NCBI RefSeq assembly: GCF_009796285.1
Contig: NZ_CP047020.1
Location: forward strand, 992,001 to 1,056,000
Length of the DNA: 64,000 bases
DNA from: Streptomyces broussonetiae
GTDB taxonomy: Bacteria > Actinomycetota > Actinomycetes > Streptomycetales > Streptomycetaceae
Direction: 5' to 3'
Below are positions 9,491-39,460 of the stretch, one piece after another. The position numbers were made by a program, and so were the translations under genes. How positions within the stretch are numbered: the stretch's first letter is position 1; every line of letters starts with the position of its first letter. Below the pieces are notes generated by a model, which was not told where the DNA came from, searched no databases, and worked only from the letters and a program-made list of their open reading frames with translations.

Positions 9491-11041
<1,551 letters not shown>

Positions 11042-11076
11042 CCCGCGGGTCAGGCAAGGAAGGGTGACAGACAGTC

Positions 11077-11517
11077 ATGGCAGAGGGCGATGCTCTTTCC
11101 ACACACGTCTTCGGCGTGCAGCTCGGCGGCTACATGGTCGAGTCGATCCAGGAGATCAGCGGGTTCTCCGTCGAGGAGGAGGTCGTCGAGGTCAAGCAGG
11201 TCACGTCGACGGGCAAGCAGATCATCCGGAAGCAGCCCGGGGCGCGGCAGGCCGGCGAGATCACGATCACGCGGGGACTCGACAAGAGCAGTGAGTTCAC
11301 CAAGTGGATCAAGGAGACGCTCAACAACGGTGCCGTCGACACCGCCCGGCAGAACCTGACGATCGAGATCAAGGACACCAAGGGCGAGACGGTCCGCCGT
11401 ATCCAGCTGATGAACGGCTGGGCCTCCAAGTGGGAGGGGCCGTCCCTCAAGGCCGGCGAGTCCTCCGCGGCCACCGAGACCGTCACGATCGTGTTCGAGG
11501 AGATCGTCGTCGAATGA
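11077..11517 (+). CDS. cis1: CIS inner tube protein (gp19/Hcp-like)
   Basis: 146 residues, a T4 gp19-like tube subunit. Typical phrases are FGVQLGGYMVESIQEISGFS, VKQVTSTGKQIIRKQPGARQ, GEITITRGLDKSSEFTKWI and the C-terminal SKWEGPSLKAGESSAATETV, followed by TIVFEEIVVE. It stacks as hexameric rings to form the rigid tube inside the sheath. ATG 11077 follows AGGAAGGG. The stop overlaps the next ATG in ATGA, so the tube and the downstream chaperone-like gene are coupled. Confidence 0.95.
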   Translation: MAEGDALSTHVFGVQLGGYMVESIQEISGFSVEEEVVEVKQVTSTGKQIIRKQPGARQAGEITITRGLDKSSEFTKWIKETLNNGAVDTARQNLTIEIKDTKGETVRRIQLMNGWASKWEGPSLKAGESSAATETVTIVFEEIVVE

Positions 11518-12014
11518 GGCGTCGTACCGTCACGGCGGGCAACCTGGAGGAGTTCCTGGAGGCGACGGCGCCGGCCGCTCAGGCGGACGAGCAGCCCCAG
11601 CCCCAGGCTCCGGCCGCCCGCCCCGCTCCGCCCCAGGACCACGGGCTGCGCACGGAGTTCGAGTTCGAGCTGCCGCGCGGGTACGTGGACGAGGCGGGCA
11701 CGCTCCACCGGCACGGCGCGATGCGCCTGGCCACCGCCCGCGACGAACTGCGCCCGCAGATCGATCTGCGGGTCAAGGAGAACCCGGCCTATCTGAGCGT
11801 GGTGCTGCTGAGCCAGGTGATCACCCGGCTCGGCACCATCACCGATGTGCACGCGGGGATCGTGGAGCGGATGTACGCCACCGACGTCGCGTTCCTCCAG
11901 GACTTCTACCGCCGCGTCAACAGCGAGGGCCACACCCGCGCGGCGGTGACCTGCCCGCACTGCGAGGGCGCCTTCGAGGTCGACCTCTCGGGTGGGCGCC
12001 TGGGGGAATCGTGA
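11514..12014 (+). CDS. Putative CIS tail-assembly chaperone (first of an overlapping pair)
   Basis: 166 residues. An acidic Ala/Pro/Gln-rich N-terminus (about 45 residues) is followed by a compact domain: TEFEFELPRGYVDEAGTLHR, ARDELRPQIDLRVKENPAYLS, VVLLSQVITRLGTI, then VAFLQDFYRRVNS and a C-terminal CPHC half zinc ribbon. Gene order right after the tube gene, and the short gene behind it in the -1 frame, match the tail-assembly chaperone position of contractile phages (P2 E and E'). The start ATG overlaps the tube stop. The family resemblance is moderate and the chaperone role is inferred from position and from its partner. Confidence 0.75.
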   Translation: MRRRTVTAGNLEEFLEATAPAAQADEQPQPQAPAARPAPPQDHGLRTEFEFELPRGYVDEAGTLHRHGAMRLATARDELRPQIDLRVKENPAYLSVVLLSQVITRLGTITDVHAGIVERMYATDVAFLQDFYRRVNSEGHTRAAVTCPHCEGAFEVDLSGGRLGES

Positions 12015-12169
12015 CGTACGCACTCCCCCGGCTGCGGGAGGAGATCGCGTACATCGCCTACCACTTCCACTGGCAGCGCGAGGAGATCCTCGACCTCACC
12101 CACGCCGAGCGCCGGCAGTGGGTGACCGAGATCGCCCGTATCAACACCCGCGTGAACGAAGGTGGTTGA
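12011..12169 (+). CDS. P2 GpE'-like short tail-assembly protein (52 aa)
   Basis: 52 residues from GTG 12011, overlapping the previous stop as GTGA. It carries the FHW signature of the short P2 E' family in the context EEIAYIAYHFHWQREEILDL, then HAERRQWVTEIARIN. In P2-like phages this segment is made as a -1 frameshift extension of the upstream chaperone; here it is an overlapping gene in exactly the -1 frame. Such proteins are easily missed because of their size. It corresponds to the small DUF6760-type genes I recall from CIS loci. Confidence 0.8.
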   Translation: MTYALPRLREEIAYIAYHFHWQREEILDLTHAERRQWVTEIARINTRVNEGG

Positions 12170-12173
12170 GCAC

Positions 12174-15100
12174 ATGGCATGGCGGGACAGACTCCGCCGC
12201 CGGCCCGCAGCGCGGACTGCCGCGGCTGCGCCGGCTTCGGGTCCTGCCGGTCCGTCGTCCGTGCCGGGCGCCGGGGACACGTCCGTCTCCGGCGCCGGCG
12301 GCCCGTCCGTGCCGGATGACTGGGACGGCGGATGGCGCCGTACCACCGCGCCGACACTGACCGTGGCCCGCGCCCCGCTCGGCGTCAGCGACGGCCTCGC
12401 CTTCCGCTCGGGCCTCGCATCCTGGCAGAACCCGTCCTTCGACGCCGGCCTCGGGCACGCGCAGCTGCCCTCCGCCCCGGTCGGCCTGATCCACGGCGTC
12501 ACCGGCCCCGCCGCGCCGGGCAACTCGCGCGCCGACGGTGGACCGCTGCTGTTGCGCGTCCCGCGCACGGACGCCGAGGAGCCGGCCGAGGCCGCCCCCG
12601 CGAGCGACTCCGGGCAGCCCGGCGCGCCCCGTACTCCGCAGGTGTCCCGCAGGACCCGTGCGGCGACTCCCCGTGACGCCGGCAGGCGCAAGGACTCACG
12701 CTCCGCGCGCCGGGACGGCGGTGACCCCACCGACAGGTCACAGGCATCGCGGGACGTGAACTCCGGTCCTGCCTCCGGCTCCACGGGAGGCTCCCAGGCC
12801 GACGGCGCTGCTGTCACGAGGACTTCACCGGCCTCCGGCCCGTCCGGGCGTACGGTCCCGGCCGACGCCCCGCCACGGCGGAGCAGCCCTGCGCCTTCCG
12901 CCCCGTCCGTCCAGCGCCGGGCGGACAGGGCTGCGCCCGGCCGGGCGATCGTGGCCGCGGACCCCCTCGTACCGACTGCCGTGCCACAGCAGCCTGTTCA
13001 ACGCTCCGCGGGGGGCTTTGAATCCACCGGTGCGCTACGTCCGACCGAACCGGGGCATCCGGCACCGGGACCGGAGATTCCGGTGGTACGACGTATCGCC
13101 GTGGTCCCCAACTCCTCCGTCGACTCACCCGTGTCCGCGCCTCGGCCTTCGTCCGGTCGTCGTACGGCGCCGGAAAGCGCACGCGGGGCACGTACAGGGC
13201 AGGTCGCCTCCACCGAGGCTGCCCAACAGGCCGCTCCCGCCGGTGAACCGGAGCCCAGGGCGGCCCGGCGTACCCCGGTGCGTCCGCATGCTCTCGGCCC
13301 CTCGCTGACCGTCGCCCGGTGGACGACCGCGCCGGTACGGCGGATCACCGCGCTGCGGCCCGCGGTCCGCCCCGCCGGGCCGGCCGCTGCTCCCGCGGTG
13401 GACCAGGACGCCGCGCCCACGCCCGCCGTGCAGCGCGCCGCCTCCCCGGCACGACCCGGCTCACGCCCGCCGCTCGGCGAGCCCCTGGCCGAACTCCCGG
13501 CCACCGCCCGTCCCTTGCCCGCCGGAACGCCGGAGACGACAGGCCCGGCGACCGCACCGGAGCTGCCGATCCTGCAGCGCCGAACGGACACCGCCACCAC
13601 TGCCTCCACGCCGCAGCCGCAGGTACGTCCGTCGCCCGCAGGAACGCCCGACACGACAAGCCCGGCGACCGCACCGACACTGCCGATCCTGCAGCGCCAA
13701 ACAGACACTGCTGCCTCCACACCGCAGCCCCTGGAGCGTCCGTCGCCCGCCGGGACGCCGGGGACGACGGGCCCGGCAACCGGACCGACGCTGCCGATCG
13801 TGCAACGTCAAACGGACACCGCAGCCTCGACACCGGAGGCACGGCGCGGCGCCCCCGCAACGCCCCGGAGTGGCGGGACACCGACGGCCGAGCCCGTGGC
13901 CAAGCCCGATCCTGCGCGTCCGGCCACCGGGCCCCGCCCGTCCGGTGCCCGAGCCCGTGGCGGGCTGGGGGCACCGCTGCCCGCGATGCCGCAGACCGCG
14001 GACATGCCACGCCCGGCCGGCCCCGGCGGCCGTCCGGTCGCACCGGCCGGACCGAGCACTCCGGCGACCCCGCACGTCCAGCGCACCCCGCTGCACCCGG
14101 ACCGCCCCGCCGGGGGCGCGCCGGAGCGCCCTTCCGGTCCTCCCCGGCCCGAGGGCACCGCTCCCCTGCTGGGCGGGACGGACGTCGCACGGCGTGGTTC
14201 CACCCCCGACTCCCGTACGGATCAGAGTGTTTCACCCTCGGTGCCGGACTCCGCACCGGCACCCGCCACTGCCCTGGCAACTCCGGGCGCCGCCCCGGAT
14301 CCCGCCACGCCCCTGGTCACTCCGGGCGCCCCGCAGTCCGTGCCCTCCGCCGCACCCGAACCCGATGCGGTGCAGCGGTTGCTCGCGCCGCGGACCCGCG
14401 CGACCACCACGGACGGGCCGACGGTACCGGCCTCCACAGGTACGACGGCCACTTCGGCCTCCGGGAACAGGTCGGCGGCACCGGCCCGCTCAGCACCCGG
14501 TGGCGCGCCTCCGGTCGTCGTCGCCAGGGCCGTCACCGTCCCAGCCCCCGCCCCCGGGCGAAGTCCGGACACCAGCGGCAACCGGCCGCCCGGTGTCATC
14601 GACACACATCCCCTCACGGCTCAGCGCCGCCCGACGCACCGCAGCCTCTCCCTGCTCCCCGCCCGCCCGCTCACGGTCAGCACCCGCGTCCCGGAGGGTT
14701 TCACACCTCCTGCCGCTGCCCGTACCGGGGAGCGTCCGGTGGTCTCCGCGTCCTGGCGCCGCGAACCGAGCCCGGGCCGGGGACCGGTACCGGCCGCGCC
14801 GCACGTACAGCGAAACGTCTCCGCCCCGGCGCCTCCGGCGTCGGGCAACCCGCCCGCGCGCAGCACGAGTTCCGTGCAGCCCCGGCGCGCCGTCCCCGTC
14901 GTACGGCCGAATCCTCCTGTCCAGCGGGCCGCCCCCGTACACCCGCAGGCACTGCCGGTGACCGATCCACAGGCGTCTCCCCTGCAGGACCGCCCGGTGA
15001 GCCCGGCCCAGCACGCCGCCCCGCCCGTGCCCGTGGTCCGCGCCACCCGTACGACGGCACACGGGCCGCACAGCGCTTCCTCCCGCGCGGCATCGGTCCA

Positions 15101-15377
15101 GCGGCAGGCGACCGGCGCCGGCGCCCGTGCCGTACCGCCCGGTGTGCCGGTGACCGCCGTGCCTTCCCGGACGGTGCAGCGCACGCCCTCGGCGCCCGCG
15201 GTGGCCGGCAGGCCGCCGGGCCGGGACACCGCCGGGTCGGCGGGCGTGCCGCAGGACTCCGGGATCGATCTGGACGAGCTGGCGCGGCGCCTGCTGGAGC
15301 CGATGGCCCGGCTGCTGAGGGCAGATCTGCGGCGCGGCCGGGAACGCACGGGCCGCCCCTACGACGGACGCCGGTGA
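12174..15377 (+). CDS. 1067-aa disordered Pro/Ala/Thr-rich CIS protein with QR repeats
   Basis: 1067 residues, nearly all low-complexity (Pro, Ala, Thr, Arg, Gly), with no recognisable enzyme domain. A short motif, hydrophobic residue then QR (SVQRRA, PVQRSA, ILQRQT, IVQRQT, HVQRTP, TVQRTP and others), recurs about a dozen times along the chain. Residues around 450-560 hold three copies of a 37-39-residue repeat (LPILQRQTDTAASTPQ). The last 45 residues form a likely helix (GIDLDELARRLLEPMARLL, then RADLRRGRERTG). ATG 12174 has GAAGGTGG upstream. It lies between the assembly chaperones and the baseplate genes, where a tape measure would be expected; a ruler, scaffold or cargo-adaptor role is inference. 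Confidence 0.8.
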   Translation: MAWRDRLRRRPAARTAAAAPASGPAGPSSVPGAGDTSVSGAGGPSVPDDWDGGWRRTTAPTLTVARAPLGVSDGLAFRSGLASWQNPSFDAGLGHAQLPSAPVGLIHGVTGPAAPGNSRADGGPLLLRVPRTDAEEPAEAAPASDSGQPGAPRTPQVSRRTRAATPRDAGRRKDSRSARRDGGDPTDRSQASRDVNSGPASGSTGGSQADGAAVTRTSPASGPSGRTVPADAPPRRSSPAPSAPSVQRRADRAAPGRAIVAADPLVPTAVPQQPVQRSAGGFESTGALRPTEPGHPAPGPEIPVVRRIAVVPNSSVDSPVSAPRPSSGRRTAPESARGARTGQVASTEAAQQAAPAGEPEPRAARRTPVRPHALGPSLTVARWTTAPVRRITALRPAVRPAGPAAAPAVDQDAAPTPAVQRAASPARPGSRPPLGEPLAELPATARPLPAGTPETTGPATAPELPILQRRTDTATTASTPQPQVRPSPAGTPDTTSPATAPTLPILQRQTDTAASTPQPLERPSPAGTPGTTGPATGPTLPIVQRQTDTAASTPEARRGAPATPRSGGTPTAEPVAKPDPARPATGPRPSGARARGGLGAPLPAMPQTADMPRPAGPGGRPVAPAGPSTPATPHVQRTPLHPDRPAGGAPERPSGPPRPEGTAPLLGGTDVARRGSTPDSRTDQSVSPSVPDSAPAPATALATPGAAPDPATPLVTPGAPQSVPSAAPEPDAVQRLLAPRTRATTTDGPTVPASTGTTATSASGNRSAAPARSAPGGAPPVVVARAVTVPAPAPGRSPDTSGNRPPGVIDTHPLTAQRRPTHRSLSLLPARPLTVSTRVPEGFTPPAAARTGERPVVSASWRREPSPGRGPVPAAPHVQRNVSAPAPPASGNPPARSTSSVQPRRAVPVVRPNPPVQRAAPVHPQALPVTDPQASPLQDRPVSPAQHAAPPVPVVRATRTTAHGPHSASSRAASVQRQATGAGARAVPPGVPVTAVPSRTVQRTPSAPAVAGRPPGRDTAGSAGVPQDSGIDLDELARRLLEPMARLLRADLRRGRERTGRPYDGRR
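13497..13850 (+). repeat. Three tandem 111-117-bp coding repeats
   Basis: The sequence CTGCCGATC with its flanks recurs at 13563, 13680 and 13791, giving periods of 117 and 111 bp. The repeats stay in frame and encode the LPI(L/V)QR(R/Q)TDTA units of the disordered CIS protein. Copy-number change here would change protein length without breaking the frame. Confidence 0.75.
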
Positions 15378-15401
15378 GGACTGGGAACGGATGGACAACG
15401 G

Positions 15402-15827
15402 ATGACGGACAACATCTTCGCGACGAGCGTGTTCTTCCGGCTCGCGATCGGCGGCAACGACCTGGGGGCGTTCCACACCTGCTCCGGCATGGGGGCGCAG
15501 GTGGAGATGGAGAGCTACGCCGAGGGCGGAAACAACGGCTTCACCTGGCAGTTGCCGGGCCGGGTCACCTGGTCGAACATCACGCTCACCCGGCCGGTCA
15601 CCGCCGACACCACGAAGATCGCGCGCTGGCTCGACGAGACGCTTCGGCGCGTGGAGCCCAAGGACGGCGAGATCGTGGCACTCAAGCCGGATCTGTCCCG
15701 GATCATCAGCTGGCAGGTGCTCGGCATCGTGCCGGTGCGCTGGGAGGGGCCGTCGTTCGACCCGTCCTCCTCACAGGCGGCCGTGGAGACGCTGGAGATC
15801 GCCCACGAGGGACTGAGGCCTTCCTGA
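15402..15827 (+). CDS. cis5: CIS second tube-like protein (tube initiator, gp19-like)
   Basis: 141 residues of the same tube fold family as the major tube protein: NIFATSVFFRLAIGGNDLGA, FHTCSGMGAQVEMESYAEGG, WQLPGRVTWSNITLTRPV, IISWQVLGIVPVRWEGPSFD, then AAVETLEIAHEGL. The place before the LysM protein matches Afp5/Pvc5, the adaptor between spike and tube. ATG 15402 is the only sensible start; the upstream ATG at 15391 runs into a stop after four codons. The stop overlaps the next start by 1 nt (TGATG). Confidence 0.9.
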   Translation: MTDNIFATSVFFRLAIGGNDLGAFHTCSGMGAQVEMESYAEGGNNGFTWQLPGRVTWSNITLTRPVTADTTKIARWLDETLRRVEPKDGEIVALKPDLSRIISWQVLGIVPVRWEGPSFDPSSSQAAVETLEIAHEGLRPS

Positions 15828-16546
15828 TGGCTGCCGTCCGCACCAGCGTGGCCAGGGCCCAGCTGACCCTGAAGGAACCCCCGACGGCGGTGGGCGCCAA
15901 GCCCGGCGGGACGATCGCCCAGCTGAACCTGCAGTTCAACCCCAACTCCCTGCAGCTGCGCAAGACCACCGAGTGGCGGCGCACTCCGTCGCGTATGGCC
16001 GGCGAGTCGGCGCTGCCGGAGTTCGTGGGCAGTGGGCCGCGGGAGCTGAGCCTGGAGGTCTTCCTCGACGCGACCTCGACCCACGACAACTCGGTCGAGC
16101 AGGCGGTGGAGAAGCTGATGAAGGGGTGCGTTCCGACCCCGGCGAGCCTCGCACGGAAGAAGCCTGCCAGTGCGTGGGTCCGCTTCGAGTGGGGTACGGC
16201 CCGCACGACGTCGTTCGACGGGGTGCTCTCCAGCCTGTCGGTGACGTACACGCTGTTCGACGTGGACGGCAAACCGCTGCGGGCGACCTGCTCGCTGTCC
16301 ATCGAGGAGGCGAGCGTCGACCCGCCGGGGCAGAACCCGACCTCGGGTGCGCGCACCGCCCGCAGTACGCACACCGTGGTGGCCGGGGACAGCCTGGCGC
16401 TGCTGGCGTGGCGGGAGTACGGCGACGCGACGGCCTGGCGGGCGATCGCCGAGGCGAACGGGATCGACGACCCGATGGCTCTGGTGCCCGGTACCGAACT
16501 GGTGGTGCCGGCGCTCGGGGACGCGGGCGGTGAGGAGGAGCGGTGA
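15827..16546 (+). CDS. cis7: CIS baseplate hub protein with LysM domain (Afp7/gp53-like)
   Basis: 239 residues. The N-terminal region of about 165 residues has the CIS baseplate pattern (LNLQFNPNSLQLRKTTEWRR, GPRELSLEVFLDATSTHDNS, WVRFEWGTARTTSFDGVLSS, LSVTYTLFDVDGKPLRATCS). The C-terminal LysM module runs roughly from residue 180 (HTVVAGDSLALLAWREYGDA) to VPGTELVVPAL. In Afp/PVC this protein clamps the hub. The gene starts at ATG 15827 in a TGATG junction with the tube initiator and overlaps the spike gene by 4 nt. Confidence 0.92.
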   Translation: MAAVRTSVARAQLTLKEPPTAVGAKPGGTIAQLNLQFNPNSLQLRKTTEWRRTPSRMAGESALPEFVGSGPRELSLEVFLDATSTHDNSVEQAVEKLMKGCVPTPASLARKKPASAWVRFEWGTARTTSFDGVLSSLSVTYTLFDVDGKPLRATCSLSIEEASVDPPGQNPTSGARTARSTHTVVAGDSLALLAWREYGDATAWRAIAEANGIDDPMALVPGTELVVPALGDAGGEEER

Positions 16547-18366
16547 CCACACCCGAGGCGCGTGGCGGCCGGTCGTTCGCGGCGGACCCCGTCGTGGAGG
16601 CGCCCGGTGAGCTGCCGCAGATCTGGGCGGCGCAGCTGGTCGGCTGTGTGGTGGACGAGAACGTGGGCCTGCCGGACACCGCCGTGCTGACCTACCGCGA
16701 TCCCGACCACGAGTTCCTGAAGTCGACCGGCATCACGCTGGGCACCCCACTGCGGGTGTCCGTGGTGACGGTTGCCGGGCAGGCGCGCGTACGGCTGTTC
16801 AACGGCGAGGTCACGGCGGTGGAGATCGACCGGGACTCGACCGGCTCGTTCACCGTCGTACGCGCCTACTCCGTCGCGCACCGGCTGCAGCGCGGCCGGA
16901 AGGTGGCGGCGTTCCGGAACATGACGGCCTCGGCCATCGTTCGCAAGGTGGCAGCCGGGGCTGGGCTGCCGGTCGGGAAGGTGGAGGCCGCGCCGGTCAC
17001 CTACAAGCAGCTGTCTCAGGCCAATGTGTCCGACTGGGACTTCCTGCAGTACCTGGCGGGCGAGAGCGGTGCGCAGGTGCGGGTGGACGACCAGGGCGTG
17101 CTGCAGTTCACCAAGCCCGAGAAGGCCTCCGGTGCGCCCGCGCCGTCGACGCCGGCCACACAGAGCCCGATGGTGCTGGAGTACGGGCGCAACCTGCTGG
17201 CGCTGCGGGCCGCGCTCTCGGGCGCGGACGGGGCCTCCCAGGTCGAGGTGCGCGGCTGGGACGTCACCACCAAGACCCCGCTGGTGGCCCGGCAGCAGTC
17301 GGTCACCAGCGACACCGTACTGCCCGGTCTGGCCCCGGAGTTCGGCGCCCGGTTCGGCAAGTCGGCGAAGCTGACGGTGACGGACACGCCGTACCGGACA
17401 CAGGCCGAGACGACGGCGGTCGCGGACGCGCTCGCGGCTCAGGTCAGCTCCGGTTTCGGGGAGGTGGAGGCCCTGGTCGAGGGAAATCCGCGGCTGCGGG
17501 CGGGCGTGCCGGTCGCGCTCGGCAATGTCGGGCCCGCGTTCTCCGGAAAGTACACGGCCACCTCGGTGCAGCACACCCTGGAGCCGCACGGCGGCTACCG
17601 GACCACGGTGTGGGTGAGCGCCAGCCCGGACCGCTCCCTGGCGGGCCTGGTGACCGGCGCGAACGCGCCCGGACGCGGCGCGCGCATGCCGGGTCTGGCG
17701 ATCGGTGTGGTGACGGACGTGCGCGAGCCGGGCGGTGCGCAGAGCGGCGGGGTCCGGCTCAAGTTCCCCTGGCTGGACGACACGTACGTCACCGACTGGG
17801 TGCGGACGGTGCAGTGGGGCGGCAAGGGCGGCGGGGGTGTGGTGAGCCCCGAGGTCAACGACGAGGTACTGGTCGGCTTCGAACAGGGCCTGCTGGACAG
17901 CCCGTACGTCATCGGCGGTCTGTACAACGGCGTGGACAAGCCCTCGCCGCACGACGTTCCGCTCGTGGACGGCACCAGTGGCAAGGTCAACCGCCGTTCG
18001 GTGGTGTCGCGTTCGGGGCATCGGCTCGAACTGCTGGATCCGCCGACGGGGCCGTCCGGAGTGCGGCTGCGGACGGCTGACGAGCGGCTGGAAGTGCTGC
18101 TGGACGACCGGAACAACCGGCTGGAGCTGACCGTGTACGCGGCCGGCGGCCGGCGGGCGCTGACCTCGGTGGTGATGGACGGTCAGGGCATCACGCTCGA
18201 CGCCAAGACCGGCAAGGTCAGTGTGAAGGGCGGCAGCGTGGAGATCGAAGGCACCAACTCGGTCAAGGTCGGCGGCCGGTCGGTGAGCGTCGGTGGGCAG
18301 ACGGACCTGACGCTCGACGGCGGTCTGCTGGGGGTGCTGAAGGCGGATCTGGTGCGTATCAATTGA
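16543..18366 (+). CDS. cis8: CIS spike/hub protein (VgrG-like, gp27-gp5 fusion)
   Basis: 607 residues. The N-terminal 370 residues have the gp27-like hub fold (GCVVDENVGLPDTAVLTYRD, ASAIVRKVAAGAGLPVGKVE, SDWDFLQYLAGESGAQVRVD). An OB-fold gp5 region follows, beginning PGLAIGVVTDVREPGG and including VRLKFPWLDDTYVTDWVRTV and NDEVLVGFEQGLLDSPYVIG. The C-terminus has a beta-helix-like series (GKVSVKGGSVEIEGTNSVKV). No extra effector domain is visible. GTG 16543 overlaps the preceding stop. The spike sits under the tube and carries the PAAR tip encoded next. Confidence 0.94.
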   Translation: MTTPEARGGRSFAADPVVEAPGELPQIWAAQLVGCVVDENVGLPDTAVLTYRDPDHEFLKSTGITLGTPLRVSVVTVAGQARVRLFNGEVTAVEIDRDSTGSFTVVRAYSVAHRLQRGRKVAAFRNMTASAIVRKVAAGAGLPVGKVEAAPVTYKQLSQANVSDWDFLQYLAGESGAQVRVDDQGVLQFTKPEKASGAPAPSTPATQSPMVLEYGRNLLALRAALSGADGASQVEVRGWDVTTKTPLVARQQSVTSDTVLPGLAPEFGARFGKSAKLTVTDTPYRTQAETTAVADALAAQVSSGFGEVEALVEGNPRLRAGVPVALGNVGPAFSGKYTATSVQHTLEPHGGYRTTVWVSASPDRSLAGLVTGANAPGRGARMPGLAIGVVTDVREPGGAQSGGVRLKFPWLDDTYVTDWVRTVQWGGKGGGGVVSPEVNDEVLVGFEQGLLDSPYVIGGLYNGVDKPSPHDVPLVDGTSGKVNRRSVVSRSGHRLELLDPPTGPSGVRLRTADERLEVLLDDRNNRLELTVYAAGGRRALTSVVMDGQGITLDAKTGKVSVKGGSVEIEGTNSVKVGGRSVSVGGQTDLTLDGGLLGVLKADLVRIN

Positions 18367-18456
18367 CAGTCTTGCGAGAACCGATCGACAGTCGGTCACA
18401 TTCTTTGCCGTCCAGGGCCCTTGAGGGCCGTGATCCCGCTTCGAGGAGCCCGTTGC

Positions 18457-18774
18457 ATGCCCGGCGCAGCCCGTACCGGCGACCCCACCAGTCATGGGGG
18501 TGTGATCGCCACCCCGCCGCCCGCGGCCGCCATGACGGTGGCGCGTGTGCTGATCGGCGGCCGTCCCGCCGCCGTCGTGGGCAGCCTGCACACCTGTGTG
18601 GTGCCCCCGCACGCCGCCCTGGGCCCGGGCAACGTGATCATGCCCAACCCCACCGGGCTGATCTCGGGCGAGGTGCTCATCGGCGGGTTGCCGGCCGCGC
18701 GGGCGGGCGACACCACCACGTGCGGCGCCACGATCCAGATCGGCGCCCTGAACGTGCAGATCGGGGGTCTGTGA
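18457..18774 (+). CDS. cis10: PAAR-like spike tip protein
   Basis: 105 residues, a PAAR/DUF4280-like cone with internal repeats: GDPTSHGGVI, AARVLIGGRPAAVVGSLHTC-type strands, ISGEVLIGGLPAARAGDTTT and the final CGATIQIGALNVQIGGL. The His and Cys residues at TSHGG, LHTC and TTCG are placed to bind a metal at the tip. ATG 18457 is chosen over upstream in-frame starts because GAGGAG at 18443-18448 sits 8 nt away. It ends in a TGATG junction with the gp25-like gene. Confidence 0.92.
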   Translation: MPGAARTGDPTSHGGVIATPPPAAAMTVARVLIGGRPAAVVGSLHTCVVPPHAALGPGNVIMPNPTGLISGEVLIGGLPAARAGDTTTCGATIQIGALNVQIGGL

Positions 18775-19196
18775 TGAGCGAGCGGTTCATCGGGCGGGGC
18801 TGGGCGTTCCCGCTGCGGGTCGGGCCGACCGGCGGGATCGCCATGGTCGAGCGGGAACGGGAGATCGAGGAGGCGATCCGGCTGGTGCTGGGCACCGCGC
18901 CCGGAGAGCGGCCGATGCGCCCGGAGTTCGGCTGCGGCATCCACGAGTACGTCTTCGCGCCCGGCGACGGCGCCACCGCGGGGCGGATCGCCCAGCAGGT
19001 ACGCGAGGCGCTGGAGCGGTGGGAGCCGCGGATCACGGTGGACGACGTGGTGGTGGCCTTCGACGCGGTGGACGACGGAACCCTCTACATCGACGTGCGC
19101 TACACGGTGCGTTCCACCAACGACCGGCGCAACCTGGTGTTTCCCTTCTACACGATCCCCTCCGAGGAGGGGGCCGAGGAAGCGGTCGCGGACTGA
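18774..19196 (+). CDS. cis9: gp25-like baseplate wedge protein
   Basis: 140 residues with the gp25/GPW signature: RGWAFPLRVGPTGGIAMVER, EREIEEAIRLVLGTAPGERP, MRPEFGCGIHEYVFAPGDG, then a C-terminal strand region (LYIDVRYTVRSTNDRRNLVF). It joins the sheath to the baseplate wedges. It starts in the TGATG junction with the PAAR gene and ends in another TGATG with the gp6-like gene, so the wedge proteins are likely made in fixed ratios. Confidence 0.94.
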   Translation: MSERFIGRGWAFPLRVGPTGGIAMVEREREIEEAIRLVLGTAPGERPMRPEFGCGIHEYVFAPGDGATAGRIAQQVREALERWEPRITVDDVVVAFDAVDDGTLYIDVRYTVRSTNDRRNLVFPFYTIPSEEGAEEAVAD

Positions 19197-21154
19197 TGGC
19201 CCTGCCCTCCCCCAACCTGGACGACCGGCGGTTCCAGCAACTCGTCGACGAGGCGAAACGGTATGTGCAGCAGCGCGCACCGGAGTGGACCGACCACAAC
19301 GTCTCCGATCCGGGCGTCACCCTGATCGAGACGTTCGCCTACATCGTGGACCAGTTGCTGTACCGGCTGAACCGGGTGCCGGACAAGAACTACACCGCCT
19401 TCCTGGACCTGTTGGGGATCAGGCTGTTCCCGCCTGCGGCGGCGAGCGCCGAGGTCGACTTCTGGCTGTCGGCACCCCAGCCCGACACGGTGACCCTGCC
19501 CACCGGTACCGAGGTGACGACGGCGGACGGCGACGCGGAGGATCCCGTGGTGTTCGCCACCACGGACGAACTGCGCATCGTGCCCAGCGAGTTGACCCGG
19601 CTGGTGACCGCGCCCCGGACCGGCGACCAGGCCGACCGGACCCGCGAGCTGACCGAGGGACGCGACGTACGGTGCTTCCAGCCGGCGCCCGAGCCTGGGG
19701 ACGCGCTGCTGTTCGGGCTGCCCACGGCCGTGCCGCGGTGCATCGTCGCGGTACGGCTGGACAGCCGGGTGGAGGGCGTGGGTGTGGACCCGCGCCAGCC
19801 GCCGCTGGTGTGGGAGGCCTGGGACGGCGGGCGCTGGCAGGTGTGCGAGACCGGCTCGGACACCACCGGCGGTCTGAACCGGCCCGGCGAGGTGATCGTG
19901 TACGTCCCGGCCGGGCACACCGCGTCCGTGATCGGTGGCACCCGGGCGGGCTGGCTGCGCTGCCGGGTGACCGCGGCGGAGCCGGGCCAGCCGTTCTACT
20001 CGGAGTCGCCGACCGTGCGGGAGGCGACGGTGTTCACCATCGGCGGCACCAGTACCGTCGAGCACGCCGAGACGGTCACGGACGTGCCGCTCGGCGCGTC
20101 GGAGGGCGTACCGGGCCAGACGTTCCGGCTCGGCCGGCCGCCGGTGCTGCTGGACGGCGGGCCGCCGGTGGTGGAGGTCTCCTCGGCCGACGGCTGGCAG
20201 CGCTGGCAGGTCGTGGAGCACTTCGGCCGCTCCGGACCCGCCGACCGGCATGTCCAGGTCGATGCGACCTCCGGCGAGTTCACCTTCCCGCCCGCGCTGC
20301 GCGAACCGGACGGGACGTTGCGGCTGTGCGGCGCGGTACCGGAGAAGGGCGCCCAGATCCGGGTGTCCCGCTATCGCACCGGCGGCGGCCCGGCCGGCAA
20401 TGTGGCCCGGGGCGCGATCTCGGTGCTGCGCAGCTCCGTGCCGTACATCGCGCGGGTGACCAACCGGGAGGCGGCGCGTGGCGGTGTGGACGGGGAGAGC
20501 CTGGCCAACGCCAAGCTGCGGGCTCCGGAGGCGCTGCGGATGCAGGAGCGGGCGGTGACGGCCGAGGACTACGAGATCATCGCCCGGCAGGCGGCTCCCT
20601 CGGTGCGCCGGGTGCGCTGTCTGCCCGCGGCCGAGGGCGCCGGTGCGGTGCGGGTGCTGGTGGTGCCGGACGCGGTGGCCGACGAGGGCGACCGGCTCCG
20701 CTTCGAGCAGCTGATCCCGTCGGACCAGGTGCTCTCGGCGATCACCCAGAGCCTGGACGAACGGCGGCTGATCGGGACCCGGCTGGTGGTGGAGCCGCCG
20801 GCGTACCAGGGCATCACGGTCGTCGCCCGCCTCGCGGCGGCCCCCGAGGACACCGACCGGATCCGGGATGCGGCGCTCGCCGCGCTGTTCCGGTACCTCA
20901 ACCCGCTGCACGGCGGACCGGACGCCACCGGGTGGCCGTTCGGGCGGCCGGTGCAGTACGGGGAGGTGTTCGGTCTGCTGCAGGGCGCCACCGGCAACGC
21001 GCTGGTGGAGGAGATCCGGCTGTTCGCCGCCGACCCGATCACCGGCCGGCGGGGCGCTCCGGCGGACCGGATCGACGTGTCCCCGGGTGCGCTGGTGTTC
21101 TCGTACCAGCACCAGGTCGTCGTACAGCCACAGGAGAGGGAGGGCCGGGCGTGA
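19196..21154 (+). CDS. cis11: Baseplate J/gp6-like wedge protein
   Basis: 652 residues. The N-terminus has the CIS gp6/Afp11 opening (LPSPNLDDRRFQQLVDEAKR, APEWTDHNVSDPGVTLIETF, AYIVDQLLYRLNRVPDKNY). The C-terminal half contains the baseplate-J region (MQERAVTAEDYEIIARQAAP, SVRRVRCLPAAEGAGAVRVL). It forms the wedge ring of the baseplate with the gpI-like protein. Start ATG 19196 overlaps the gp25-like stop; the stop overlaps GTG 21151 by 4 nt. Confidence 0.94.
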   Translation: MALPSPNLDDRRFQQLVDEAKRYVQQRAPEWTDHNVSDPGVTLIETFAYIVDQLLYRLNRVPDKNYTAFLDLLGIRLFPPAAASAEVDFWLSAPQPDTVTLPTGTEVTTADGDAEDPVVFATTDELRIVPSELTRLVTAPRTGDQADRTRELTEGRDVRCFQPAPEPGDALLFGLPTAVPRCIVAVRLDSRVEGVGVDPRQPPLVWEAWDGGRWQVCETGSDTTGGLNRPGEVIVYVPAGHTASVIGGTRAGWLRCRVTAAEPGQPFYSESPTVREATVFTIGGTSTVEHAETVTDVPLGASEGVPGQTFRLGRPPVLLDGGPPVVEVSSADGWQRWQVVEHFGRSGPADRHVQVDATSGEFTFPPALREPDGTLRLCGAVPEKGAQIRVSRYRTGGGPAGNVARGAISVLRSSVPYIARVTNREAARGGVDGESLANAKLRAPEALRMQERAVTAEDYEIIARQAAPSVRRVRCLPAAEGAGAVRVLVVPDAVADEGDRLRFEQLIPSDQVLSAITQSLDERRLIGTRLVVEPPAYQGITVVARLAAAPEDTDRIRDAALAALFRYLNPLHGGPDATGWPFGRPVQYGEVFGLLQGATGNALVEEIRLFAADPITGRRGAPADRIDVSPGALVFSYQHQVVVQPQEREGRA

Positions 21155-34577: not shown

Positions 34578-36065
34578 TCACCTCGCCGGCGCGGTGATCT
34601 CCCGCTTGAGGATCTTGCCGCTCGGGCCCATCGGCAGGGCGTCCGTCAGCCAGAGCCGCCGGGGGTACTTGTAGGCGGCCACCCGGTCCCGGACGAACTG
34701 CTGCAACTCCTCGGTGTCCGCCCGGGCTCCCGGACGCAGCACCACCGCGGCCGCCACCTCCTCGCCGAGCCGCTCGTCGGGCACGCCGAGAACCGCGGCG
34801 AGGGCCACGGCCGGGTGCTCGTGCAGGACCTCCTCGATCTCGCGCGGGTAGACGTTGTAGCCGCCGCGGATGATCAGGTCCTTCTTCCGGTCGACGATGT
34901 ACAGGTAGCCGTCCTCGTCCCGGCGGCCGAGATCGCCGGTGCGCAGCCAGCCGTCGGGGATGGCGGCGGCCGTGTCCTCGGGGCGGTTCCAGTACTCCTT
35001 CATCACGTTCGGCCCGCGCACGGCCAGTTCGCCGACCTCGCCCGGTGCGACGTCCCGGCCGGTCTCGTCGAGCAGCCGGACCTCGACGTCACGGACGGGG
35101 GTGCCGATGGAGCCCGGCTTGCGCGGGCGGTCGGGGTGGTTGAAGGAGACGACCGGGCTGGTCTCGGACATGCCGAAGCCCTCCAGCACCATGCAGCCGA
35201 AGCGCCGCTCGAACCCGTGCAGCACCTCCACCGGCAGGGAGGCGCCGCCCGAGACGCACATGCGCAGGCTGGACACGTCGACGGGGCCCGGGTGCTGCAG
35301 GAGTGCGGCGTACATGGTGGGCACGCCCTCGAAGACGGTGGCCCGGTCGCGTGCGACGGCGTCGAGCACCGCGCCCGGCTCGAAGCGCGGGACGAGGGTG
35401 AGCGAGGCTCCGCTGCGGACGGCCACGTTCATCGTGCAGGTCTGCCCGAAGATGTGGAACAGCGGCAGACAGCCGACGATCACGTCCTCGGAGGTCAGCC
35501 GCTGCACCTCGGTGACGTTGACCTCGGTGTTGTGGCGCAGCCCGGCGTGGGTGAGCGCGGCGCCCTTGGGATGTCCGGTGGTGCCCGAGGTGTAGAGCAG
35601 TACGGCGATGTCGTCACCGGCGACGGTGGTCACCTCGTACTGCGGCTCCAGGCGCGCCAGTTCGGCGGCGAAGGCGGCGGGTTCGACCGCGAGGCGCCGT
35701 ACCCCGGCGGCACTCGCGCCCGCCGCGCCCTCGCCGGGGGCCCGGTGCCACTCGAAGAGCAGGACGGCCCCGGAGTCCTTCAGGTGGTAGGCGGTCTCCC
35801 GCTCCTTCAGCAGCGGGTTCAGCGGCACCACGATGCCACCGGCACGCAGGACCGCGTAGTACAGGACGACGAACTCGGGCACGTTCGGGAGCATCAGCGC
35901 GACCCGGTCGCCGGTGCGCAGTCCCTCGGTGCGCAGCAGGGCGGCCGCCTGGGCGCTCAGCCGGTCCAGCTCGGCGTAGCTGGTCGTCGCCGCGCCGAGG
36001 CGCAGTGCCGGGTGGTCGGGCAGGCGTCGCGCCGTGTCCACCAGAAAGTCCGCCAGATTGGCCAT
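34578..36065 (-). CDS. Long-chain-fatty-acid-type CoA ligase
   Basis: 495 residues of the ANL adenylate-forming superfamily. The P-loop-like A3 motif VLLYTSGTTGHPKGAALTH, the A5 region VLEGFGMSETSPVVSFNHPD, the A7-A8 hinge GYLYIVDRKKDLIIRGGYNV and the catalytic Lys in GPSGKILKREI are all present, so the enzyme should be active. ATG 36065 is fixed by GAGGAGG in the 5' leader. Chain length of the substrate cannot be read from sequence. It is divergent from a PucR-type regulator with a palindrome between them, suggesting substrate-responsive control. Confidence 0.94.
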   Translation of the reverse strand: MANLADFLVDTARRLPDHPALRLGAATTSYAELDRLSAQAAALLRTEGLRTGDRVALMLPNVPEFVVLYYAVLRAGGIVVPLNPLLKERETAYHLKDSGAVLLFEWHRAPGEGAAGASAAGVRRLAVEPAAFAAELARLEPQYEVTTVAGDDIAVLLYTSGTTGHPKGAALTHAGLRHNTEVNVTEVQRLTSEDVIVGCLPLFHIFGQTCTMNVAVRSGASLTLVPRFEPGAVLDAVARDRATVFEGVPTMYAALLQHPGPVDVSSLRMCVSGGASLPVEVLHGFERRFGCMVLEGFGMSETSPVVSFNHPDRPRKPGSIGTPVRDVEVRLLDETGRDVAPGEVGELAVRGPNVMKEYWNRPEDTAAAIPDGWLRTGDLGRRDEDGYLYIVDRKKDLIIRGGYNVYPREIEEVLHEHPAVALAAVLGVPDERLGEEVAAAVVLRPGARADTEELQQFVRDRVAAYKYPRRLWLTDALPMGPSGKILKREITAPAR

Positions 36066-36184
36066 GATGCCTCCTCGCATCCCTGCTCCCGGCGCCCACG
36101 GGTCCCGCCGCCGACGCTCCCGGCATGGTCGCCCGCACGCTGAGGGCCGTCCATGGCCGCACCCACAGTCCGTACCCGTCTCAG

Positions 36185-36200
36185 TTGTTCCCGGGAACAA
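36185..36200. promoter_or_regulatory. 16-bp perfect palindrome, likely operator
   Basis: TTGTTCCCGGGAACAA, a perfect palindrome, lies between the divergent CoA ligase and PucR-type genes, 24 nt before the regulator ATG. Its position fits an operator for the regulator acting on itself and on the ligase; this is inference from symmetry and location. Confidence 0.6.
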
Positions 36201-36223
36201 TCAGGCCGTCGTACGCTGCGGAC

Positions 36224-37390
36224 ATGGGTTTGCCACAAGTCGGCGCGGCATTGCGTACACGTCTTCCGGAGCTGGGCGAGCGGATGACCGAGCGCATCCG
36301 CGCGGAGGTCGAGTCGTACGCGGACGACGCGCTGATCCCCTTCGCGTCCCTGAGGGACTCCTGCGAGGACAACGCCGACCTGCTCCTCGGCCGTTTCGCC
36401 TTCGGTGCCGAACCCGACGTGGGAGCCGCGCGGCAGACCGGACGCCTGCGCGCGGAGCAGGGGGTACCGCTGGCCGACACGCTGCACGCCTACCGCGTCG
36501 GGTTCGAACTGCTGTGGTCGGAGATGGTCGACGAGGCGCACCGGCACCCGGATGTCACGGACGCCGAGCTGGTGGCCGGTTCGTCGGAGATCTGGGCCCT
36601 GTTCGGCCGGTACGCGGAGGCGGTGGCGGCCGCGTACCGGGAGGCCAGCGCGGAGCTGGCGCTGCAACGTGAGGCACGCCGCTCGGCGTTGGCCGAGGCG
36701 CTGTTCACGGGCGCTCTCGCGGACCGTACGACGCCCTGGGAGGCGGCGCGGCAGCTCGGTCTGCCGGAGCGGGGCCCGTACGCGGTCGTGGCCGCCACCG
36801 TGCCGGATCCCGGGCAGGAGCCGCTGCCCGGGATCGAGTCGGCGCTGCGCCGGTCCGGGGTGGCGTCGGTCTGGCGACTGCTGCCCGACCAGCAGATCGG
36901 ACTGGTCTCGCTGGCGCACCGGGACGCGGAGCCGGTGAGCCTGCGGGCGCTGCGCCGACGGCGCGCCCGGGTGGGGATCAGCCCCCGCTTCGACTCGCTG
37001 CGGGAGACCCCGCAGGCGCTGCGCTTCGCCCGGCTCGCCCTGGCCGGGCTGCCCGGCGACGGACCGGGGATCACCCTCTTCGACGACAGCCCGCTGGCCA
37101 TGCTGGTGGCCGCGGCCCCGGCGGAGGCGAGCCGGCTGGTCGAGGTCGCCCTCGGGCCGGTCCTGCGGCTCCCGGAGGCGGAGCGGGCGCGGCTGCTGCG
37201 GACGCTGGCGTACTGGTTCACCGCGGGCGGTGTGGCGGCCGAGGCGGCGGACCGGCTCTTCGTCCACCCCAACACCGTGCGCTACCGGCTGCGCCGCATC
37301 GAGGAGTTGACCGGCCGCTCCCTCACCGACCCGACCGCGCTGGCCGACCTGGGTGGCGCGCTGTACGCCCTGCGCCTGCTGCCTTCCTGA
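36224..37390 (+). CDS. PucR/CdaR-family transcriptional regulator
   Basis: 388 residues. The C-terminal PucR-type helix-turn-helix is clear: ADRLFVHPNTVRYRLRRIEE followed by LTGRSLTDPTALADLGGALY. The N-terminal half carries the RsbR/GGDEF-like sensing part found in Streptomyces members (LPELGERMTERIRAEVESYA, ADTLHAYRVGFELLWSEMVD). It probably senses a small molecule or acyl compound handled by the neighbouring ligase. ATG 36224 starts MGLPQVGAALRTRL. Confidence 0.92.
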   Translation: MGLPQVGAALRTRLPELGERMTERIRAEVESYADDALIPFASLRDSCEDNADLLLGRFAFGAEPDVGAARQTGRLRAEQGVPLADTLHAYRVGFELLWSEMVDEAHRHPDVTDAELVAGSSEIWALFGRYAEAVAAAYREASAELALQREARRSALAEALFTGALADRTTPWEAARQLGLPERGPYAVVAATVPDPGQEPLPGIESALRRSGVASVWRLLPDQQIGLVSLAHRDAEPVSLRALRRRRARVGISPRFDSLRETPQALRFARLALAGLPGDGPGITLFDDSPLAMLVAAAPAEASRLVEVALGPVLRLPEAERARLLRTLAYWFTAGGVAAEAADRLFVHPNTVRYRLRRIEELTGRSLTDPTALADLGGALYALRLLPS

Positions 37391-37463
37391 CCTGCCTGCG
37401 CCGGCCGCACGACCGTCACCCGCACGGTGAACGCCGTCCGAGCCGCACCGCCGACCAGCGGGA

Positions 37464-38018
37464 TCACAGGGAGATGTCGATGTCCTCGACGTCGGTGAAC
37501 TCCACCAGCAGGCCGTGCGCGCGCCGGCCGGCGTCGCGGAAGTACATCTCCCCCAGCCCCTGGGCCGCGATCTCCTGCAACTGCGACTCGGTGGCACCCC
37601 GGTCCCGGGCGGCGAACAGCCGCTCGGCCCAGCGGGGCGGCAGGGCCTGGGTGATGTGACGCAGGCGGGCGTCGTCGGTGGTGCCCGGAGCCGCCGTGAA
37701 GCCGAACCGGGCGCGCGCCGAGACGACGATGCCCTCCGCCGCGGCGGCCCGGCCCTTGGCCCGCGCCCGCACCTGCGGCTGCCAGCGCAGCCTGACCTCG
37801 CGTTCCAGCCGCATGGCGAGGTCCTTGCGCGGGTGCTTGAGCGTCCCGACCACGTACCGCTCCACCGTGCGCTGCGAGACACCCAGCAGTTCGGCGGCCG
37901 GCCGTGTGCCCTTGAGCTGCTTGACCAGGTACTTCATCCGAGCCTGCGCGGACTTGGGGACAGGACGGGTGAACGCCCCTTCCAGCGCCCGGTCCAGGCT
38001 CTCCCCGACGGTGTCCAC
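37464..38018 (-). CDS. tpg: Telomere terminal protein (Tpg) homologue
   Basis: 184 residues, the length of the Streptomyces Tpg proteins that cap linear replicon ends. The family pattern is seen throughout: LDRALEGAFTRPVPKSAQAR, MKYLVKQLKGTRPAAELLGV, SQRTVERYVVGTLKHPRKDL, RLRWQPQVRARAKGRAAAAE, GTTDDARLRHITQALPP, GLGEMYFRDAGRRAHGLLVE. The helix-turn-helix around SQRTVERYVVG binds DNA in the family. GTG 38018 has AGGAG at 7 nt. No tap-like partner gene and no telomeric palindromes are in the window, so this is an orphan internal copy or part of a chromosomal paralogue set. Confidence 0.9.
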   Translation of the reverse strand: MDTVGESLDRALEGAFTRPVPKSAQARMKYLVKQLKGTRPAAELLGVSQRTVERYVVGTLKHPRKDLAMRLEREVRLRWQPQVRARAKGRAAAAEGIVVSARARFGFTAAPGTTDDARLRHITQALPPRWAERLFAARDRGATESQLQEIAAQGLGEMYFRDAGRRAHGLLVEFTDVEDIDISL

Positions 38019-38119
38019 GGGCTTCTCCTCTCCGCATCGAGGCGACCCGGCGTCGGCCCTCTCGCGGGTCAGCCTATGCGACGGAGCCGACACCCCGGGA
38101 CATGCGCACCGACCTCCCT

Positions 38120-38149
38120 TTTGAACCCGTTCAAATACAGGACTAGGCT
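38120..38149 (+). promoter_or_regulatory. Promoter with TTTGAAC-CC-GTTCAAA operator over the -35
   Basis: A -35 TTGAAC at 38121-38126 and -10 TAGGCT at 38144-38149 are separated by exactly 17 nt. The -35 lies inside the perfect 7-2-7 inverted repeat TTTGAACCCGTTCAAA (38120-38135). This is the arrangement of a repressible promoter for the epimerase gene at 38178, whose ribosome site is AAGGGGG. The repressor is not encoded next to it. Confidence 0.7.
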
Positions 38150-38177
38150 GGGCCCCACTCGCACAAGGGGGCTGTGA

Positions 38178-39161
38178 ATGAACGTGGTTCTGGCCGGGGG
38201 AACCGGACAGGTGGGCACGATTCTCGACCGCGCGCTGACGGCGGCGGGTCATGAGGTCACGGTGCTGACCAGGCATCCGCGACGAGAACGCCAGACCGGC
38301 TGGGACGGGGTCACGCTCGGCCCGTGGGCCGAGGCGGTCGACGGCTGCGACGTGGTGATCAACCTGGCCGGACGCAGTGTCTCCTGCCGCTACACCCCCG
38401 AGAACCTGCGGGCCATGATGGACTCCCGGGTCGACTCCGCACGCGTGGTCGGCGAGGCGATCGCCGCGGCCGCACGGCCACCGCGGGTCTGGCTGCAGAT
38501 GAGCACCGCGACGATCTACGCCCACCGCTTCGACGCGGCGCACGACGAGGCGACGGGCGTGATCGGCGGCTCGGAGACCGGGGTGCCGGACTACTGGGGC
38601 TTCAGCGTCGAGATCGCGCGGAACTGGGAGCGCGCGCAGCACGAGGCGCCGACGCCGGCGACCCGCAAGGTGGCGCTGCGCTCGGCGATGGTGATGAGCC
38701 CGGACCCGGGCGGCGTCTTCGACGCCCTGCTGGGGCTCGCCCGGGTGGGGCTCGGGGGACCCGTCGCCGGTGGCGCGCAGTACGTCTCCTGGATCCATGA
38801 CGAGGACTTCGTCCGCGCGGTGGAGTTCCTGATCGACCGCGCCGACATCGACGGACCGGTCAACCTCGCCACCCCCGGCCCGCTGCCCCAACGGGACTTC
38901 ATGCGCACGCTGCGCGCCGCCTGGGGCGTCCCGGTCGGGCTGCCCGCGACGCGCTGGATGGCGGAACTGGGCGCGTTCGCGCTGCGCTCGGACACCGAAC
39001 TGCTGCTCAAGAGCCGCCGGGTGATACCGGGTCGGCTCCGGGAGGCCGGGTTCTCCTTCACCCATCCCACCTGGGAGTCGGCCGCCGCGGACCTCGTCCA
39101 GCGAGCCCCCGGAGGGCTGCGCCGGCCTGGCCGCGCGACCGCTCACGGGGGTCGCCGATGA
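38178..39161 (+). CDS. TIGR01777-family epimerase (SDR39U1-like)
   Basis: 327 residues. The family N-terminus VVLAGGTGQVGTILDRALTA is followed by VVINLAGRSVSCRYTPENLR, WLQMSTATIYAHRF, SAMVMSPDPGGVFDALLGLA and YVSWIHDEDFVRAVEFLIDR. A classic YxxxK is not evident, as usual in this atypical SDR family whose reaction is unknown. The C-terminus (residues 310-327) is Arg/Gly-rich and may be disordered. Control by the operator-bearing promoter just upstream is likely. Confidence 0.92.
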   Translation: MNVVLAGGTGQVGTILDRALTAAGHEVTVLTRHPRRERQTGWDGVTLGPWAEAVDGCDVVINLAGRSVSCRYTPENLRAMMDSRVDSARVVGEAIAAAARPPRVWLQMSTATIYAHRFDAAHDEATGVIGGSETGVPDYWGFSVEIARNWERAQHEAPTPATRKVALRSAMVMSPDPGGVFDALLGLARVGLGGPVAGGAQYVSWIHDEDFVRAVEFLIDRADIDGPVNLATPGPLPQRDFMRTLRAAWGVPVGLPATRWMAELGAFALRSDTELLLKSRRVIPGRLREAGFSFTHPTWESAAADLVQRAPGGLRRPGRATAHGGRR

Positions 39162-39204
39162 GTTCGACGAGGTGACGGCCGCACCCGTGCTGTCCGGCTG
39201 CGAC

Positions 39205-39236
39205 GGCCGGTGCCGCTCCGGCGACCGGCACCGGCC
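39205..39236 (+). terminator. Hairpin terminator after the epimerase gene
   Basis: Perfect 11-bp stem (39205-39215 with 39226-39236) and a 10-nt loop, 44 nt after the epimerase stop. The surrounding 299-bp gap (39162-39460) otherwise holds only a doubtful 91-codon open frame. Confidence 0.65.
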
Positions 39237-39460
39237 GTTCCTCCCGCTCCCGCTCACGGACCACGTCGCGGCACTCCGTTGCGCCCTCGGCGCCGAAGAG
39301 CTGTCCGCTCCGGTCGACTTCACGACACCCCAGCCGGCGACGATCGGGAAGGTGATCCGGGCGCAGGGCCGGGTGCGGGAACGTCCGGCGCGCGGGACCA
39401 TGGTCGTCCAGCCGCAACGGTGCCGGGGCTCGGCAGAGGACCGGTGACAAGGAGGACGTC

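Follow-up and report, generated by a model that had tools for sequence, protein, structure and literature searches.

The telomere-protecting terminal protein Tpg is described as acting with a second protein, Tap, which binds the folded 3' overhang and presumably recruits Tpg; Tap and Tpg alone perform primed synthesis of up to 13 nt, and the two genes are reported to form an operon within the terminal region (PMC3572947, PMC4513846). Threonine 114 of Tpg is reported as the deoxynucleotidylation site, and the S. lividans protein was reported inactive after substitution of A42, V52, R54 or Y55, as was Tpg lacking residues 2-5 (PMC3572947). Other arrangements have also been described. The lone tpg of the linear plasmid SLP2, tpgSLP2.19, functions with a tap supplied elsewhere in the genome, in a strain with a chromosomal tap-tpg operon; five lone tpg genes were tested in that work and three were non-functional (PMC3572947). 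In S. rochei 7434AN4 and S. clavuligerus, an intact plasmid tap-tpg pair serves the chromosome (PMC6662830, PMC8743545). The type II Tpg with Tap-alt has a long helix-turn-helix (HTH) ORF and a Tap remnant adjoining tpg, and the same report leaves open whether telomere and terminal complex need joint acquisition (PMC7205883). The positions of tap and tpg were mapped in 20 closed genomes, some strains differing between the two genes in copy number or replicon (PMC8743542), and this part of the idea developed here is therefore already known. None of the listed titles and abstract openings reports a sole tap and tpg pair that persists on the chromosome with its members at a distance from each other.

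Here we analysed a 64,000-nucleotide stretch of Streptomyces broussonetiae DNA (the window), which corresponds to bases 992001-1056000 of a single 9,735,779-base contig. The window Tpg resembles the archetypal S. lividans and S. coelicolor proteins in length, NF047541 family, HTH and Thr114, whereas its gene does not lie directly downstream of tap in an operon: it has its own upstream region, and tap is located 82 kb away. Like tpgSLP2.19, which needs a tap elsewhere (PMC3572947), it has no adjacent tap, but it is chromosomal, and no other intact tpg was found in its genome. In contrast to the plasmid pairs of S. rochei and S. clavuligerus, both genes are chromosomal and apart. It shares with the type II Tpg the absence of a normal adjoining Tap but, unlike type II, nothing Tap-like was found near it and an intact normal Tap is present elsewhere. 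We estimate a probability of roughly 75% that this gene encodes the working chromosomal terminal protein of its lineage, acting with the distant Tap in trans. The separation of tap and tpg is an unusual yet stable arrangement, common to the nearest relatives.

The tpg gene and its immediate neighbours

The features of the locus are as follows (window coordinates).

36284..37390, + strand: PucR-type regulator (ORF start possibly 36125), the neighbour of tpg in the window genome on the side away from the epimerase
37464..38018, - strand: tpg, telomere-protecting terminal protein (ORF, NF047541 match and key residues)
38025..38033, - strand: ribosome-binding-site-like GGAGAGGAG, ending 6 nt 5' of the GTG start
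38071..38076, - strand: TAGGCT, candidate -10 box of a tpg promoter, proposed from the alignment of five upstream regions
38121..38134, no strand: perfect palindrome TTGAACCCGTTCAA in the divergent intergenic region, found in 27 of 30 epimerase loci
38178..39161, + strand: NAD-dependent epimerase with DUF1731, adjoining tpg in the window genome and four sister genomes

The tpg ORF starts with GTG and encodes 184 residues, of which residues 4-184 align to positions 2-183 of the 183-position NF047541 (telomere_Tpg) profile. This top family scored 286.3 bits (E 1e-85) against a curated cut-off of 90, and no other NCBIfam or Pfam family exceeded its own cut-off. The residue numbering coincides with that of the S. 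lividans Tpg; more specifically, the HTH residues A42, V52, R54 and Y55 are all present and the N-terminus is untruncated. Threonine 114, which is expected from the sequence to serve as the residue for covalent DNA attachment and priming, is also present and, together with the adjoining residues, is kept in all five genomes aligned (S. broussonetiae and the four sisters, hereafter the clade). A Thr (or Ser) at position 114 was one of several traits expected of an archetypal Tpg.

The ribosome site of tpg contains GAGAGGAG, which is conserved across the five genomes aligned, and the stretch CGTCGCATAGGCTG that holds the candidate -10 box is identical in all five. These results agree with the original prediction of a full-length 184-residue Tpg-like protein with an intact HTH and an excellent ribosome site, among housekeeping-type genes; the genes around tpg are indeed those of the chromosomal backbone, and no family fitted the protein better than Tpg. 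Scans of the window for tRNA and Rfam families returned nothing.

The palindrome has the form TTGAAC-N2-GTTCAA, lies 5' of the DUF1731 epimerase gene and is likely an operator for some regulator. It was considered as an operator of tpg and rejected: of the 30 Streptomyces epimerase loci, 27 carry the palindrome and only 3 have an adjoining tpg. Because loci that lack tpg possess it too, the palindrome belongs to the epimerase gene. Elsewhere in the window (9491-21154), a contractile-injection-like cluster was observed, with a phage-type sheath, a tail tube, a baseplate V/GPD hub and baseplate J according to Pfam.

Copies of tap and tpg in S. broussonetiae and its relatives

A tblastn search with Tpg returned six places in the S. 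broussonetiae genome, of which only the window gene was intact. At 393 kb, the start codon of the copy is in another frame than the body, and the reading frame continues past the position of the normal stop, which is absent; the copy at 391.5-392.1 kb, which accounts for two of the six places, is frameshifted; the match at 9.31 Mb is a fragment of 34-36 residues; and the remaining place is weak, with four stops. The corresponding search with a Tap also gave six places and a single intact gene, to which two of the places belong. This gene (contig 1112233-1114707, - strand) encodes 824 residues and matches NF047542 with 1076 bits (cut-off 600). It lies outside the window, 82 kb from tpg and on the same strand; no tpg adjoins it, and a convergent gene of the fructosamine-kinase family ends 7 nt from its stop. 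The other Tap matches are a broken copy next to the 393-kb tpg (two places), a stop-containing fragment at 107 kb, and an HTH protein at 5.74 Mb which, when its frame was read, proved similar in the N-terminal HTH only. The stretch at 391.5-395.2 kb has the appearance of a decayed tap-tpg-tpg cluster, where tap carries an internal stop, one tpg has the out-of-frame start and lost stop, and the second is frameshifted.

The possibility that the window gene is a paralogue alongside a normal operon was therefore rejected, since the other copies found in the genome are broken or fragments. The paralogue reading of the original prediction is accordingly not supported for the window genome or for its four sisters, in each of which the corresponding gene is the only intact tpg found. 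Its statement that tpg has no tap partner holds for the adjoining DNA and misleads for the genome, which has an intact tap on the same strand at a distance of 82 kb.

The relatives were the 80 best kept from 84,980 species genomes. Among these, the closest Tpgs were those of Streptomyces sp. MMG1121 (94% identity), Streptomyces sp. CoH27 (92%) and S. monashensis (92%); a further sister genome, G287, has a Tpg of 93%. In all four, tpg adjoins the same epimerase gene without tap, and each genome has one intact tap. MMG1121 and CoH27 contain a single Tpg match each, the gene at the epimerase site; S. monashensis has the full gene and fragments, and G287 the full gene and out-of-frame pieces of three copies. 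The two genes lie on the same strand within syntenic backbone, at a distance of ~94 kb in MMG1121, 92 kb in CoH27 and 96 kb in G287; in S. monashensis they are on different contigs, so that linkage is seen in the other four genomes of the clade. Two records with the same coordinates (G345 and G102) were counted once as S. monashensis, and G287 may be of the same species as CoH27; the claim therefore extends to five genomes and at least four species.

A Tpg match was found in 45 of the 100 genomes surveyed, the window's own included, all of them of its genus; of the 80 relatives listed, those with names belong to Streptomyces apart from one Actinacidiphila. Among the best 80 Tpg-like loci, tap sequence ends within 60 nt of tpg in 61 (partial in L100 and L113). 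Of the 19 loci with no tap within that distance, three are the orthologues from sister genomes, and eight carry a piece resembling the Tap N-terminus 2-3 kb upstream. Those eight (L108, L109, L110, L111, L117, L120, L129 and L131) may represent the Tap-alt arrangement. Searches for tap-tpg that depend on adjacency would wrongly score genomes such as that of S. broussonetiae as lacking the system.

Selection on tpg and its proposed role

Selection was estimated for the 65 genes of the region that have at least two orthologues, with a custom Nei-Gojobori-type script applied to simple gene calls. The mean pairwise dN/dS of tpg across four genomes was 0.157, which ranks eighth among the 65 (median 0.23); three near neighbours, an acyl-CoA-synthetase-type gene (PF00501), pucR and the epimerase gene, gave 0.168, 0.176 and 0.247, respectively. 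Purifying selection constrains tpg no less strongly than these neighbours. The value for tap was 0.211 (rank 25 of 65) and refers only to the called 549-residue C-terminal part. The slot between the epimerase gene and pucR is otherwise variable. In the window genome it holds tpg alone, while the sister genomes have a GH127 glycosidase gene and a methyltransferase gene between tpg and pucR, with an additional FMN reductase gene in MMG1121. In relatives outside the clade, the slot contains an unclassified gene and a reductase gene (G369), one methyltransferase gene (G161, where pucR itself was not called) or other genes (G190). The constant insert in all five clade genomes is tpg.

This persistence in a variable slot, the low dN/dS, the full family match with intact key residues, and the finding of one intact tap and no second intact tpg in each of the five assemblies all argue for a working terminal protein. 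The conservation of both sites, with tap 82-96 kb away in the four genomes where they are linked, points in the same direction, and the lone tpg of SLP2, shown by experiment to work with a tap located elsewhere, offers a precedent (PMC3572947). We infer that tpg is expressed, that Tap and Tpg interact and that both are used at the telomeres of their own chromosome. Tap would be made from its gene 82 kb away and Tpg from its own transcription unit with a short upstream region, and the two would meet in trans at the chromosome ends. There, Tap would bind the folded 3' overhang and recruit Tpg, the hydroxyl of Thr114 would take the first dCMP, Tap would extend, and Tpg would remain covalently on the 5' end.

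Set against this are the separate contigs of tap and tpg in S. monashensis and the fact that three of the five lone tpg genes tested elsewhere did not function (PMC3572947). The latter result is also what favours the view that the window tpg is a non-functional remnant, which we consider very improbable given a frame intact in five genomes, intact key residues and the dN/dS of 0.157.

The window contains no telomere-like hairpin array, as originally predicted: over 1276 tiles, at most three perfect hairpins were counted per 200 nt, and at most two near tpg. The last 200 nt of the window's own contig hold one and zero perfect hairpins at the two ends, and all four ends of the G287 contigs C1 and C2 hold none. 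As a yardstick, the end of the linear plasmid NZ_CP108511.1 has four and that of NZ_CP108807.1 only one. Palindromic ends were found in G161, whose chromosome and 342,739-base second contig show 6, 3, 6 and 5 hairpins per 200 nt. As neither the window genome nor G287 has telomere arrays at its contig ends, the assembly probably stops short of the chromosome ends, and the distances from tpg to the nearer contig end (1.03 Mb, and ~0.84 Mb in G287) are lower bounds. An unassembled end or plasmid could therefore carry another tap-tpg pair, as plasmids of S. rochei, S. clavuligerus (PMC6662830, PMC8743545) and the near relative G161 do, and this counts against a terminal protein working at its own chromosome.

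The same contig ends lend some weight to the alternative that tpg is kept for another role, such as the ends of a linear plasmid or regulation through its HTH, while the chromosome ends use an unseen system; several Streptomyces are indeed reported to lack tap and tpg or to use other terminal proteins (PMC8743542, PMC7205883). We regard this as unlikely, because Thr114 and its neighbours are conserved in all five clade genomes and one intact tap co-occurs in each genome while other copies have decayed. The new DNA role that was suggested originally is likewise not supported, in view of purifying selection and of a single intact tap that lies 82 kb off on the tpg strand.

Origin of the separated pair

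Two accounts of the separation were weighed. In one, tpg moved from an original tap-tpg operon to the epimerase site on the same arm, and the two genes are original partners; in the other, an old chromosomal tap lost its own tpg, and a tpg of a plasmid-associated type arrived separately and took over. Trees were built from 36 of 66 Tap and Tpg pairs, the 66 leaving out entries with a Tap shorter than 500 residues (e.g., L113) as well as loci lacking a complete tap next to tpg. The plasmid-associated type, here called type A, comprises the Tpgs of operons L011, L012 and L057-L063 and their kin; 15 such operons are in the trees, three of them from linear-plasmid records.

The identities of the two proteins differ in pattern. 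The window Tpg is 74-81% identical to the Tpgs of L011, L012 and L057-L063, whereas the Taps of these operons are only 59-63% identical to the window Tap, and in all nine the Tpg identity exceeds that of 94-100% of operon pairs with like Tap identity. This mismatch favours separate arrival and tells against a simple split of one operon. The window Tap is closest (75%) to that of L101 (Streptomyces sp. TP-A0356), whose Tpg is itself low against the seven operons shown as control in the same comparison of Tpg with Tap identity, a point that weakens the case for separate arrival.

In the Tpg tree, the clade groups with type A (90/82), and its grouping with 13 core operons of the other type was rejected by the AU test (p 4e-5; those 13 alone, p 0.256). 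In the Tap tree, the clade joins L101 (100/98) and, with it, the 13 core operons (92/82), and a grouping with type A alone was rejected (p 0.005). These placements support a mosaic pair. Several shared topologies nevertheless survive: for Tpg, the clade with L101 (p 0.143) or with the full set of 16 other-type operons (p 0.175), and for Tap, the clade with L101 and type A (p 0.169). Furthermore, each of the best trees recovers type A alone as a clade, with support of 63/33 for Tpg and 100/100 for Tap. These tests thus allow a single shared history of Tap and Tpg, as original partnership would have it, and a mosaic origin is not advanced as a firm claim.

Gene order provided further evidence. 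In four relatives (G161, G369, G190 and G033), the flanking genes of the window's tap are adjacent to each other, without tap; tpg is also missing from the epimerase site in G161, G369 and G190, and in G033 none was found within 1.5 kb of that gene. Elsewhere in their genomes, G161, G190 and G369 do have tap-tpg pairs. The two marker genes that border the sites are separated by 92 kb in G161 and 102 kb in G369, on the same strand, and across the 19 kb read at each site the genes follow largely the same order. The marker spacing is kept in relatives that have neither gene there; hence the gap is old backbone and no insertion split the pair. An 82-kb insertion between tap and tpg was rejected on this ground, and the same spacing counts against the split of one operon. 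Genes found ~10 kb or less from the window's tap recur beside intact tap-tpg operons in L077 (S. endocoffeicus), L083 (S. samsunensis) and L101, the slot not being identical, which suggests that the window's tap region is an old chromosomal tap-tpg region. A search of these three for pucR, as a sign of the old gene order, gave matches of 39% and 48% in two and none in L083.

The shared flanking genes fit both accounts. In favour of separate arrival, one may add the only tap-tpg pair of G161, which is of type A and is carried on a linear second replicon with ends resembling those of the chromosome. For the transfer of tpg out of one operon, L101, the sister of the clade in the Tap tree, has tap and tpg side by side, and two of the genes flanking them recur around the window's tap; each clade genome has one intact gene of each kind, on the same strand and the same arm where linked.

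The plasmid records were also searched. Megablast of window positions 36000-39400 against 72,556 plasmid records gave matches in 27; in the 20 listed, nothing aligns beyond tpg and its immediate edge, the best at 80.5%. The integration of a linear plasmid at the site was rejected, since in the listed records the match is tpg and edge only, and the same observation speaks against a plasmid source for tpg. The suggestion of a linear-plasmid relic thus survives in one respect, in that this type of Tpg includes linear-plasmid copies, and fails in the other, as no further plasmid DNA appears among the matches listed.

On balance, original partners separated within one arm are a serious possibility at slightly less than even odds, and a mosaic pair is a plausible, more tentative reading. 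The fuller claim is doubtful as it stands: that the chromosome is capped by a naturally mismatched pair, with a Tap of chromosomal lineage and a plasmid-associated Tpg which arrived in the chromosome alone, displaced the original Tpg and has persisted for no less than the age of four species. If it were true, Tap and Tpg would be evolutionarily exchangeable parts and not a locked operon. G161, S. rochei and S. clavuligerus (PMC6662830, PMC8743545) show how a chromosome can change its source of terminal protein. A stable lineage whose only intact Tap and Tpg genes found are far apart, possibly from different sources, offers a natural test of their linkage.

Two observations were made near the distant tap. 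A cyclodipeptide synthase gene (PF16715) lies beside a cytochrome P450 gene (PF00067) at contig 1109.2-1111.2 kb (L020:5247-7162). An ORF without a Pfam match (L020:10698-11213) overlaps the listed start of tap on the same strand and is conserved in the sister genomes (77-89%).
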